Source of the DNA: Roseburia hominis
GTDB lineage: Bacteria > Bacillota > Clostridia > Lachnospirales > Lachnospiraceae
Length of the DNA: 64,000 nt
Assembly: GCA_040702975.1 (NCBI GenBank)
Contig: CP159990.1
Span: 992,001-1,056,000 of the forward strand
Direction: 5' to 3'
Under the pieces are notes generated by a model. It worked only from the letters and a program-made list of their open reading frames with translations. It searched no databases and was not told where the DNA came from. Positions 20,043-25,009 of this stretch are shown piece by piece; position 1 is the first letter of the stretch, and each line of letters opens with the position of its first letter. The translations under genes and the position numbers were made by a program.

Positions 20043-21854
20043 ATGAACAAGATGAAAAAGTTTACTGCTGTCGTGCTTGTTTTGGCAATGGTTTTGTCAC
20101 TGGCTGCATGCGGTAAGAAAACAAGCGGTGGTTCAGGAAAAAAGACTGAGACCACGGGTGAAACCATAAGATTGTTAGGTTATTCTTATTATGAATCAAC
20201 CATGAACATCTTACGTGACCAGTTGACGAAGGCCGGCTTTGAGGTTGAACTCAACATGCAGCCGGACTATTCAAGTATGGTAACTGTCCGTGATACCGGA
20301 GAGTGGGATCTCTGTATTTCAGGCTGGACGACTGTAACAGGTAACCCGGACTATGCTGCAAGGGACGTATATGCTTCTTATGGTCAGTATAATGCAGGCG
20401 GAATCAATGACCCGAAGGTTGATGAGCTGATTGACAAGGCATCTACCCAGACTCCGTCTGAGTATGCAGCTACCTACAAAGAACTGGAAGATTATGCAAT
20501 AATAGAGAACGTTTACTCTCTGCCGTTATATGCGCAGAAAGGTATCCGTGCCATCAACAACACAGTTGTGGATGAGAGCACCGTTCTCAACCCGCAGTCC
20601 CGTTCTGCATACTGGGAGAACTATTCTTATGTTGATGAATCCCAGAATGCTACGAGAACATTGATGCTTACACAGACAATGGGCGCATTGACCTCCTTAG
20701 ACCCGATTCAGGCTAATGATGGTTCAATCAACCAGCTTTCTGCTAACCTTAATGTTCGTATTGTCAACATGACGCCGGATGACCAGATTGTACCGGAAGG
20801 TTCACTTTCACGTAACATTGCAATCGGTGAAGGAAATAGTGCATTCTATTTTATCCTTCGTGATGATGTTTATTTCTCAAGAGTAGAGAATAAGCATGTT
20901 GTGGCTACTGATGTACGTGTTGGCGCAGAGGACGTAGAGTTCTCTCTGGAGAGAGCAGCAGACAAAGACAGTGTTGCAAGCCACAAGACCTACAACCTGC
21001 ATAACCATATGTCAGACGTTTCTATCGTGACAGATATTGAGGAACTGAAAAATATTAACGATGCTGATACAGGAAAACCGGTATTTGAGACCTTATCTAA
21101 AGATCTTCCGTCTGAAATCACTACACTGACGGCTGATAAGACACAGGTTGATAATGCAAACGGTGTATATCAGGTTGTTAAGATCTCTACAGAGAATCCG
21201 TTCCCGCAGGTACTTTATTACCTGGCTCACCAGTCAGCAGGTATCCTGAACAAGGAAGCTGTAACAGAAATGAACTCCAAGTTTGATGTTGCTACTTATG
21301 ACCCGACCAAGGATGTATGTTATGGCGACCCGGCTGCAATTAAAGCTGGAAACAATCATCTGTGGATGTCCGGTCCTTATGCGCTGGTATCTTATGACGA
21401 TTATCAGGTAACCTTTGAGAAGAACCCGGGCTACATGGCAGGAACAGAACACGAAGCAAAGATCAGCAATGTTGCAATCAAGTTCATTAAAGACGCAACT
21501 TCTGCAACTTCTGATTTCCGTGCAGGTGGTATTGATATCCTGGATTCCGTTGCAACCAATGATGTTGCTACACTTGAAGAAAACAAGGATTACACCGTAT
21601 ACAAGTATATCAGACATGCTACATCATACTGCGATTTCAATATGAAAGATGGCAATAAGTTTGAGAATCTTGACCTGAGAAAAGCGGTATACTATGCAAT
21701 TAATGAGGAAGAGTATATTGCTTATAACAACGAGCTTGTAGGACCGCTGTGCTCAACATTCTCTACACTGATTGACACAGGAAATACTCATGAATTCAGT
21801 CTTGAGAAGAGTGCAGAGCATCTTGCAGCATACCAGAAAAGCGCTGGTAAATAA
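20043..21854 (+). CDS. Circularly permuted family-5 (SBP_bac_5-like) substrate-binding lipoprotein
   Basis: 603 residues. Signal peptide with lipobox L20-A21-A22-C23, so it is anchored outside the membrane. The order of segments is swapped. Residues about 40-197 (GETIRLLGYSYYE, QLTKAGFEVEL, WDLCISGWTT, NDPKVDELIDKA, IIENVYSLPLY) correspond to the C-terminal third of a normal DppA-type protein. Residues about 204-603 (GALTSLDPIQ, FYFILRDDVYFS, NGVYQVV, NLDLRKAVYYAINEEEY, SAEHLAAYQK) correspond to the N-terminal two thirds. The end at AEHLAAYQKSAGK and the start at GETIRLL would join exactly where the second binding protein in this window reads AKEYLAQSNYN-GETLKLY. It is the receptor of the preceding transporter. 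Confidence 0.8.
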   Translation: MNKMKKFTAVVLVLAMVLSLAACGKKTSGGSGKKTETTGETIRLLGYSYYESTMNILRDQLTKAGFEVELNMQPDYSSMVTVRDTGEWDLCISGWTTVTGNPDYAARDVYASYGQYNAGGINDPKVDELIDKASTQTPSEYAATYKELEDYAIIENVYSLPLYAQKGIRAINNTVVDESTVLNPQSRSAYWENYSYVDESQNATRTLMLTQTMGALTSLDPIQANDGSINQLSANLNVRIVNMTPDDQIVPEGSLSRNIAIGEGNSAFYFILRDDVYFSRVENKHVVATDVRVGAEDVEFSLERAADKDSVASHKTYNLHNHMSDVSIVTDIEELKNINDADTGKPVFETLSKDLPSEITTLTADKTQVDNANGVYQVVKISTENPFPQVLYYLAHQSAGILNKEAVTEMNSKFDVATYDPTKDVCYGDPAAIKAGNNHLWMSGPYALVSYDDYQVTFEKNPGYMAGTEHEAKISNVAIKFIKDATSATSDFRAGGIDILDSVATNDVATLEENKDYTVYKYIRHATSYCDFNMKDGNKFENLDLRKAVYYAINEEEYIAYNNELVGPLCSTFSTLIDTGNTHEFSLEKSAEHLAAYQKSAGK

Positions 21855-21900
21855 TATAAGCGGATAAACAGGCATACACATTTAGAAGGGAATAGTAATT

Positions 21901-22176
21901 ATGAAGAAAGTGATAATGTTTTCAAATGTACATTGACCGGGCTGCCCACCAGTGAAAGAGGCTCTTTCCGAAGCAGGCATAAAGTTTGTCTATTTTGACA
22001 TTTCTTCAGGTATGCTGCCACTTAAAAAATTTCTTAAATATCGTGACGAAAGACCGGAATTTGCTCCGATCAAGGAAGCCGGAAGGGTTGGACTTCCCTG
22101 TATTGTCGTAGAAGATGATGAAAAGGGTGTACAAGTTCTTTTTGAACTTTCGGAGAATTTAGACGAACTGAAATAA
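21901..22176 (+). CDS. Glutaredoxin-like selenoprotein with in-frame UGA (Sec12)
   Basis: The frame starts at ATG 21901 (AGAAGGGA 10 bases upstream), meets TGA at 21934-21936 and continues to TAA at 22176: 91 residues if UGA is selenocysteine. The UGA lies at the first position of the redox motif: NVH-U-PGC, followed by PPVKEALSEAGIKF, FLKYRDERPEF and GLPCIVV, the cis-Pro region of a thioredoxin fold. A nonsense mutation exactly at the catalytic cysteine with the rest of the frame intact is unlikely. A hairpin with a GGC loop follows at the distance expected of a bacterial SECIS. A shorter product starting at GTG 21952 would lack the active site. It ends the desulfidase/transporter operon. 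Partner selABCD genes are not in this window. Confidence 0.8.
21954..21968 (+). promoter_or_regulatory. Candidate bacterial SECIS hairpin
   Basis: Six-bp stem GAAAGA / TCTTTC with a three-base loop GGC, about 24 nt downstream of the UGA at 21934-21936. This fits the known bSECIS model: a small loop with a G in its first two positions, 16-37 nt after the UGA. Lower pairing between GCTGC (21941-21945) and GCAGGC (21973-21978) could extend it. Confidence 0.6.
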
Positions 22177-22186
22177 AGGCGGAGAA

Positions 22187-22226
22187 GGGAACGCTTGCAG
22201 ACTTGCAGGTGTTCCTTTCTTTTTTC
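22187..22226 (+). terminator. Terminator of the desulfidase/transporter/selenoprotein operon
   Basis: Stem GGGAACGCTTGCA / TGCAGGTGTTCC with a short loop, then CTTTCTTTTTTC. It ends the transcript 11 bases after the selenoprotein stop codon, supporting membership of that gene in the operon. Confidence 0.8.
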
Positions 22227-22299
22227 AATCCTATATCTTGCAAAAACAGAGCAAAGAGTATAAAATGAAAGGAAATATGCGATTTGAGGTGAGCGTAAT

Positions 22300-22398
22300 A
22301 TGCTGAATGGAAAGAATAACAGGAGAATAGCGGCGATCATTATACTTGTAGTCGTAGTTGCAATGCTGGCTACAACGGTAATTCCATACATTTTATAA
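22300..22398 (+). CDS. 32-residue single-helix membrane protein
   Basis: ATG 22300 has GAGGTGAG upstream and encodes MLNGKNNRRIAAI, then an uninterrupted hydrophobic helix to the end (IILVVVVAMLATTVIPYIL). Positive charges before the helix suggest an N-in orientation. It is followed 20 bases later by the VanW gene. No family recognised. The clear ribosome site and clean helix make it more than a chance frame, but there is no functional evidence. Confidence 0.5.
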   Translation: MLNGKNNRRIAAIIILVVVVAMLATTVIPYIL

Positions 22399-23956: not shown

Positions 23957-25009
23957 ATGAATCTGGGAAATGTATCACAGACGGTATACCGCCGGTCTGT
24001 TCTCAAACAACTGCATAAAGAGTCGCAGGCCGTTCTGGTGCTGCCCGGACAGGAAGAGGAGTGTTGGGGAGTTATAAGCGGACCTGGAGAATCCGTCCTT
24101 GCAAGTGATGTCACCTGCTATGGCAACGAGAAGGATCTGTGCGTATTTGCCATGGCACAGGCGGCGAATAATCTCGCTTCCAGAGGAGCGCAGGTGAAAG
24201 GGTTTGCAATCTCGATCCTTTTGACGGACTATGCCCACGAATCCAGGCTGAAGGCCATGATGCAGTCGGCAAGGCAGGCAGCAGAACGGGAAGGGCTTGC
24301 AGTGATGAAAGCACATGCCCAGACGATGCCGCTTTTGCAGACAACCGTAGTGCAGGTGACGGCACTTGGGACGATTTCTACCGTATCTGCAGGAAAAGAT
24401 AAGAGTGCCGCGATCAGTGGAAAAGAGAGTGCAGGGCATGAGAGGCGCACAGACCTCATTTTAAGCAGAAATGCAGAGCCGGAGCAGGATCTTGTTATGA
24501 TAAAATGGGCCGGACTTGAGGGCACGCTGCGAATCAAGAGAGAGAAGGAAGAGGAATTAAGCGAAAGGTTTCCGGGCGCATTTTTGAATAAGCTGGAATC
24601 TTACATGGCGGAGTTGTTTTCTATCCGGGAAATGAAGGCTGCTGCGGCCACAGGCGTATCTGCCATGCATCAGATCACAGATGGCGGAGTGCTGGCGGCA
24701 CTCTGGAATCTGGCGGAAAGCGCCGGAATCGGCCTTTCAGTAGATTTACGGAAGATACCGATCCGTCAGGAGACGATCGAAGTGTGTGAACAGTTTCACC
24801 TCAACCCTTATCAGCTTACCAGTACGGGAAGTATCCTTGTGGTGACGCAAAAAGGGGAAGAGATGGCAGATGCGCTGAAACGGGAAGGTACCGCTGCGGC
24901 GGTGATTGGATATACAACGAGGGGACGGGAGAGAACGGTGCGAAGCGGCAGTGAGCTTCGGTATCTGGACAGACCGGCCCCGGATGAACTAACAAAGATT
25001 TTTGCATAA
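23957..25009 (+). CDS. AIR synthase-related (HypE/PurM-like) protein
   Basis: 350 residues with the PurM/HypE two-domain arrangement: an N-terminal ATP-binding half (ASDVTCYGNEKDLCVFAMAQAANNLASRGAQVKGFAISIL) and a C-terminal half with HQITDGGVLAALWNLAESAGIGLSVDL and LTSTGSILVV. The HypE C-terminal PRIC motif, which carries the thiocyanate, is absent, so it is not a hydrogenase maturation HypE. Stand-alone members are common in Clostridia and uncharacterised. It starts 11 bases after the VanW stop and is followed after 15 bases by an Lrp regulator, suggesting one transcript. Confidence 0.75.
   Translation: MNLGNVSQTVYRRSVLKQLHKESQAVLVLPGQEEECWGVISGPGESVLASDVTCYGNEKDLCVFAMAQAANNLASRGAQVKGFAISILLTDYAHESRLKAMMQSARQAAEREGLAVMKAHAQTMPLLQTTVVQVTALGTISTVSAGKDKSAAISGKESAGHERRTDLILSRNAEPEQDLVMIKWAGLEGTLRIKREKEEELSERFPGAFLNKLESYMAELFSIREMKAAAATGVSAMHQITDGGVLAALWNLAESAGIGLSVDLRKIPIRQETIEVCEQFHLNPYQLTSTGSILVVTQKGEEMADALKREGTAAAVIGYTTRGRERTVRSGSELRYLDRPAPDELTKIFA

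Follow-up and report, generated by a model that had tools for sequence, protein, structure and literature searches.

Glutaredoxins are listed among the bacterial selenoprotein families (PMC1794560), with selenocysteine (Sec) placed in a UxxC motif (PMC13188914), and the 2006 survey names Sec-containing forms in Geobacter, Alkaliphilus, and Moorella (PMC1794560). According to its structural report, glutaredoxin-1 of Clostridium oremlandii (cGrx1; PDB 7c10, 7c12, and 7c13) is natively a selenoprotein, with selenocysteine as catalytic residue and a U(or C)PXC motif; it was proposed as a reductant of MsrA, and the structural work used replacement of Sec by Cys (PMC7642778). A further kind is represented by the UXX-star proteins (NF041212, NF041114, NF041211, and NF047338), which are glutaredoxin-like and carry U at the same place as the protein described here.

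The gene considered below lies at 21901-22176 of the window, that is, of the whole 64,000-nucleotide stretch of DNA that was analyzed. Judging from comparison with its relatives, it very probably encodes a small oxidoreductase of the glutaredoxin fold in which the catalytic residue is selenocysteine. Like cGrx1, the product would be a Sec glutaredoxin with the U(or C)PXC motif.

Gene Structure and Active Site

The features of the locus are the following.

21884..21890, + strand: AGAAGGG, a possible ribosome-binding site before ATG 21901, read from the sequence
21901..22176, + strand: coding frame of the predicted Sec-containing glutaredoxin-like protein, 91 residues and TAA (ATG 21901; Pfam PF00462 match)
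21934..21936, + strand: TGA, predicted Sec12, first residue of UPGC (TGA in 22 genes, Cys codon in 46 others)
21943..21945, + strand: TGC, Cys15, last residue of UxxC, putative resolving cysteine (unchanged across the 9 Sec sequences in alignment A5)
21952..22176, + strand: GTG-started ORF of 74 aa without the active site, all that a plain ORF listing gives
21954..21968, + strand: SECIS-like hairpin GAAAGA-GGC-TCTTTC (motif in 22/22 TGA forms, fixed codons, pair counts)
22096..22098, + strand: Pro66 of G-x-P, probably the cis-proline of the thioredoxin fold (alignment and fold model)
22174..22176, + strand: TAA, stop codon of the glutaredoxin-like frame
22181..22222, + strand: long hairpin with a T-rich 3' arm, directly after the stop codon (folding energy)

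As the first-pass annotation described, the frame opened by ATG 21901 is interrupted only by TGA 21934-21936. With this TGA written as U, the translation of 21901-22176 is MKKVIMFSNVHUPGCPPVKEALSEAGIKFVYFDISSGMLPLKKFLKYRDERPEFAPIKEAGRVGLPCIVVEDDEKGVQVLFELSENLDELK. The only in-frame TGA of the 91-residue frame falls at the first cysteine of the glutaredoxin CxxC, here U-P-G-C, and this placement was confirmed by an alignment in which homologs carry Cys at residue 12, opposite the TGA of the window. Because UGA, the Sec codon, is normally read as a stop, plain gene prediction loses the active site; a plain ORF listing indeed yields only 21952-22176, in agreement with the earlier expectation that gene callers would start at GTG 21952. 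The label "unannotatable" given to the gene was too strong, since glutaredoxins that are selenoproteins already form a recognized class, and other glutaredoxin-like selenoproteins have NCBIfam models.

The existence of the GTG ORF invites a different account: either UGA is read through or reassigned (e.g., to Trp) independently of SelB, or the ribosome initiates at GTG 21952, giving a 74-aa protein without the active site. TGA is also the rarest stop in the window, ending 3 of the 45 ORFs of at least 200 aa, and two of these three TGA-ended ORFs look like spurious antisense frames. This account is nevertheless very improbable: the aligned residue is Cys in relatives lacking the TGA, UxxC and the residues preceding the TGA are conserved, and, as described below, the genome has the Sec machinery and the gene a motif restricted to TGA forms.

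Family Assignment

The predicted Sec-containing protein passes the Pfam Glutaredoxin model PF00462 (28.5 bits, cut-off 22.9), and all nine members of alignment A5 match the model at an E-value of 0.01 or better. Both hallmarks of glutaredoxins, the C/UxxC motif and G-x-P, are present, and G64 and P66 are invariant among 24 aligned sequences. The AlphaFold model built from these 24 sequences (mean pLDDT 85.7) has the order strand-helix-strand-helix-helix-strand-strand-helix. The top solved relative by profile is cGrx1 (7c10, 2.4e-11), which also ranks first in the Foldseek structure search (E-value 3.4e-3, TM 0.59/0.69), a search that gave no match at an E-value of 0.001 or below.

The likeness to cGrx1 has limits. 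The profile match is split into positions 2-46 and a weak part at 55-87 (13.9 bits), leaving out the conserved segment after LKxFL; compared with cGrx1, the subfamily of the window has a conserved LKxFLKxRD insert and a further helix. Taking as the mark of a cGrx1-type protein the same domain without the LKxFLKxRD insert, a feature of our own choosing, we find that the profile match breaks at the insert. At the site of the SECIS-coded VKEALSE of the window protein, cGrx1 has VKEFLSE.

NCBIfam scans covered the window protein and 20 of its 21 Sec relatives (all but L083, which is nearly identical to L082), and none of the models was over its cut-off on these 21 of the 22 Sec forms. The best match of the window protein and its relatives, the YruB family TIGR02196, is still below its cut-off of 88.55, with 28.5 bits for the window protein and at most 55.0 among the relatives. 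NF041114 (Uxx-star family 1) gave 14.2 bits for the window protein against a cut-off of 72. The UXX-star family 1 motif is UxxT (PMC13188914), whereas the window protein has UxxC.

These weak Uxx-star and YruB matches are common in the group, and they bear on the role of the Sec residue. PMC13188914 suggests that Sec in UXX-star proteins may be a metal ligand; by analogy, the window protein could be a selenoprotein in which Sec serves to bind a metal or a different ligand and does not act as a disulfide reductant, and the insert that separates the group from cGrx1 is compatible with such a role. We consider this unlikely, though a reading to be taken seriously. The scores with NF041212 (Uxx-star) are far below its cut-off of 66 bits, 23.2 for the window protein and at most 36.4 in the 20 relatives; all nine Sec proteins of A5 retain the second Cys of UxxC; and cGrx1, the nearest solved relative, forms a disulfide across the motif (PMC7642778). 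The best reading of the window protein is therefore an insert-bearing Sec-glutaredoxin whose nearest solved structure is cGrx1. Glutaredoxins with selenium are already known as a kind, of which the group of the window looks like an unlabeled branch; among the titles and abstract openings covered by our literature search, none named an insert-bearing Sec-glutaredoxin subfamily, which may be described already.

The SECIS-Like Hairpin in the Window

The letters GAAAGA-GGC-TCTTTC are present at 21954-21968 as first described. The arms, 21954-21959 and 21963-21968, form 6 bp around the loop GGC at 21960-21962, with G first. The stem begins 17 nt and the loop 23 nt after the TGA, so that the distance of about 24 nt initially given suits the loop but not the stem. 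The bacterial SECIS limits stated in PMC13188914 are a loop of 3-9 nt, an upper stem of 4-16 bp, a G in the first two loop positions, a spacing of 16-37 nt from UGA, and a minimum free energy of at most -7.5 kcal/mol. The hairpin is within these limits for loop size, stem length, loop G, and spacing, and to this extent the proposed fit to the bacterial SECIS model stands; the energy limit is reached by the 47-nt fold that includes the flanking lower helix (-10.4 kcal/mol, z +0.81) but not by the isolated 23-nt hairpin (-3.7 kcal/mol, z -0.24). With such unremarkable z values, folding energy was rejected as evidence for a SECIS element. No SECIS family appeared when 21850-22250 was scanned with Rfam; the three matches listed, all far below the gathering score, included mir-6 on the terminator-like hairpin.

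Within the window, both strands and any frame considered, 46 of 2347 TGA triplets are followed in the 16-37 nt range by a 6-bp hairpin with a G-first loop of 3 nt, and a run of 79 or more open codons comes after 87 of 2347. The product, with independence assumed, gives about 1-2 expected joint cases per 64 kb. Hence frame and hairpin alone, within the window, are near chance, and since the hairpin is also weak, the case rests on comparison and conservation. The features that exceed chance are the match of the TGA to Cys in the alignment, the sel genes, and conservation in 21 relatives.

Distribution of TGA and Cys Forms

Matches were found in 12 of 61 relatives; within the genus they occurred in 6 of 8 genomes, within the family in 51 of 299, and within the class in 102 of 391. 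At class level many are weak, and these may represent other glutaredoxins. The matched region contained a TGA in 4/61 relatives, 3/8 genomes of the genus, and 2/299 of the family, and, with strong matches only, in 14/391 of the class, the genome of the window being counted in each. Nine weak class-level TGA matches stand outside the final set (G387, G413, G440, G462, G484, G490, G657, and two in G536) and may be other glutaredoxin-like selenoproteins. A scan of named genomes gave nine loci, eight with the TGA form, all in metagenome assemblies labeled Coprococcus, Lachnospiraceae, Defluviitaleaceae, Clostridia, Eubacteriales, or Oscillospiraceae, and one with the Cys form, in a Thermoplasmata archaeon. 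After removal of duplicates, 22 distinct TGA genes remained, that of the window plus 21 relatives, each of which comes from Clostridia or a clostridial assembly. The 46 Cys forms compared with them are those caught by the same script, which misses some Cys loci (e.g., L005, L034, L041, L052, L055, L070, and L103); L012 is truncated.

This distribution bears on the simplest objection, a broken gene or sequencing error, in which a nonsense mutation in a Cys glutaredoxin is not decoded. One change is enough to put a TGA into a short frame, and frame and hairpin alone are, as noted, near chance in 64 kb. Conservation speaks strongly against it, the same TGA recurring in 21 relatives with frames open on both sides and the motif being fixed at the nucleotide level, and we regard this explanation as extremely improbable.

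The motif GARRGAGNNYCTTTC follows the TGA at a distance of exactly 17 nt (base 21, counting from the TGA) in 22/22 TGA genes and is at that place in 0/46 Cys-coding relatives processed by the same script. Inspection by eye of L005, L034, and L070, Cys loci outside the 46, revealed no hairpin motif. Some hairpin of at least 6 bp occurs within the searched range in 12 of the 46 Cys forms, and one of the 46 (L038) has 6 bp at the same place as the Sec hairpin, with the loop AAT. In two assemblies a Cys copy is directly followed by a Sec copy (L066, 3001-3710, and L068, 365-1060); in both tandem pairs the Sec copy has the hairpin motif and the Cys copy lacks it. A search of the genome of the window for TGA-N(10-24)-GAAAGAGGYTCTTTC returned the glutaredoxin gene 21901-22176 as the only match; the strict motif thus flags no further selenoprotein in this genome.

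Both sequence and pairing of the hairpin are conserved. A 3-nt loop closed by 6-9 pairs is formed in 21 of the 22 TGA forms; L079 has an A-C mismatch at the loop-closing place and forms a 5-nt loop, AGTTC. In the TGA forms, pairing in register holds in 91.5% of cells, versus 40.9-68.8% when the arms are slid, and the covariation score was reached by 1 of 500 shuffles. Four pairs never vary, and G-U is seen at one pair in two sequences. The six inner pairs hardly vary, so the outermost pair is the sole one with changes in both arms (nine cells); the number of pairs changed on both sides was no better than shuffled (500/500 shuffles). The two outer pairs are missing in 6/22 and 8/22 TGA forms, including the hairpin of the window. 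In nine Sec genes, codons 18-22, which lie in the hairpin, are identical in 162/162 same-residue comparisons, versus 574/1268 elsewhere in codons 1-72, which argues that the RNA itself is under selection.

Selenocysteine Machinery

The search for sel genes proposed in the first-pass annotation found selA, selB, selD, and tRNA-Sec. In the genome of the window (one contig, 4,257,935 bases) selD, selA, and selB stand side by side at about 76-80 kb, all over cut-off (selA 619.8, selB 375.2, and selD 390.1 bits), and tRNA-Sec with anticodon TCA is at 901998-902091 (64 bits, cut-off 47). SelD of this genome (L023, about 79.5-80.4 kb) is itself encoded with one in-frame TGA; downstream, CCCAGGTTCTGGG folds into a hairpin different from the glutaredoxin one but has AGGTTCT in common with the glutaredoxin hairpins from several relatives.

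Over two scans, tRNA-Sec is over cut-off in 19 of the 22 TGA genomes (8/9 and 11/13); those without it, G001, G545, and G601, are all drafts. selA is over cut-off in 7/9 TGA genomes (G001 and G047 being the exceptions), in 8/14 Cys-only genomes, and in 2/2 congeners without a match. Among Cys-only genomes, tRNA-Sec was found in 0/6 chosen for having no selA over cut-off and in 4/8 of a second set. Since the Sec trait is common in the group, Cys-only genomes included, co-occurrence alone is weak evidence.

From the codon, the conserved RNA element, the machinery genes, and the family match, all of them observed, we infer SelB-dependent insertion of Sec. The ribosome would meet UGA at codon 12; the hairpin 17 nt downstream would recruit SelB with Sec-tRNA(Sec), and Sec would be inserted in place of termination. 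Judging from the UxxC motif, the glutaredoxin family match, and the solved relative cGrx1, Sec12 would act as the nucleophile and Cys15 as the resolving residue, and a disulfide or another oxidized substrate would be reduced.

Genomic Neighborhood

One further feature adjoins the gene on the upstream side.

20043..21854, + strand: solute-binding protein, oligopeptide-type ABC transporter gene set, 46 nt upstream (PF00496, 135 bits)

An operon with this gene was considered and rejected: in two congeners a solute-binding-protein look-alike lies near the gene on the opposite strand (with an intervening ORF in one, by eye), and six other named loci have different neighbors (by eye, from ORF lists). 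The neighbors thus vary among named loci, and no partner is indicated. Downstream, the hairpin at 22181-22222 (-27.9 kcal/mol, z -5.75, with 0 of 200 shuffles as good) is likely an intrinsic terminator; it is absent among the sites listed by a consensus scan.

Two other observations were made nearby. A 32-aa hydrophobic peptide frame at 22300-22398, before a VanW/G5-domain gene, has a weak match to the stressosome protein Prli42 (16.8 bits, cut-off 27.5). About 1.8 kb downstream, 23957-25009 encodes an AIR synthase-related protein (AIRS_C, 57.5 bits) that resembles HypE (65.6 bits, cut-off 251.6) and, weakly, SelD (27 bits, cut-off 125); the selD over cut-off sits elsewhere in the genome.

Evolution of Sec and Cys Forms

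The phylogenetic tree was built for 67 proteins with 90 columns kept (L058 was dropped; the midpoint root serves for drawing only). All 22 Sec forms fall into a clade of 28 proteins (support 96/93), which also holds six Cys forms from about four lineages. One Cys form within the Sec clade (L007, 1492-1791) has lost the second cysteine and has CPDN, not CxxC. The tree needs at least five Sec/Cys changes, of which well-supported branches force at least four. By our count, one gain and four losses of Sec cost the same as four gains and one loss. As the motif is common to all Sec lineages, one gain is favored, that is, a single origin of Sec followed by repeated reversion to Cys; the alignment is short, so the history of reversions is only a suggestion.

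The hairpin motif is absent from all six nested Cys forms. In one of them, L081, the sequence GAAAGAGTTGCTTAC is two bases away from GAAAGAGTTTCTTTC and has the look of a decayed hairpin. No tRNA-Sec scores over cut-off in the genome of L081 (G577), whereas one does in the genomes of two other nested Cys forms, G705 (L086) and G511 (L091). Remnant SECIS-like structures after a Sec-to-Cys change are described for other families in the 2006 survey (PMC1794560). We would give about even chances to the full scenario of a distinct clostridial subfamily of Sec-glutaredoxins with a single origin of Sec, a SECIS element fixed in both sequence and structure, and approximately four reversions to Cys, each without the hairpin motif and one (L081) with a remnant of it.

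In the table of the same survey, the glutaredoxin row reads 3, -, 3, -, which from the totals we take as three Cys-to-Sec changes and no Sec-to-Cys change (PMC1794560). On this reading the direction given there for glutaredoxins is Cys to Sec, whereas for the subfamily of the window the tree suggests Sec-to-Cys reversions. If true, the single-origin reading is the reverse of the direction reported for glutaredoxins.

In summary, an unlabeled group is added to the clostridial selenoproteins, one that a plain ORF listing recovers only in truncated form. With 22 Sec and 46 Cys forms and tandem copies in two assemblies, it provides a clean natural experiment in which the codon and the hairpin go together. 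This makes testable whether clostridial SelB reads the sequence of the stem or the loop, and what benefit Sec has over Cys in one small enzyme.
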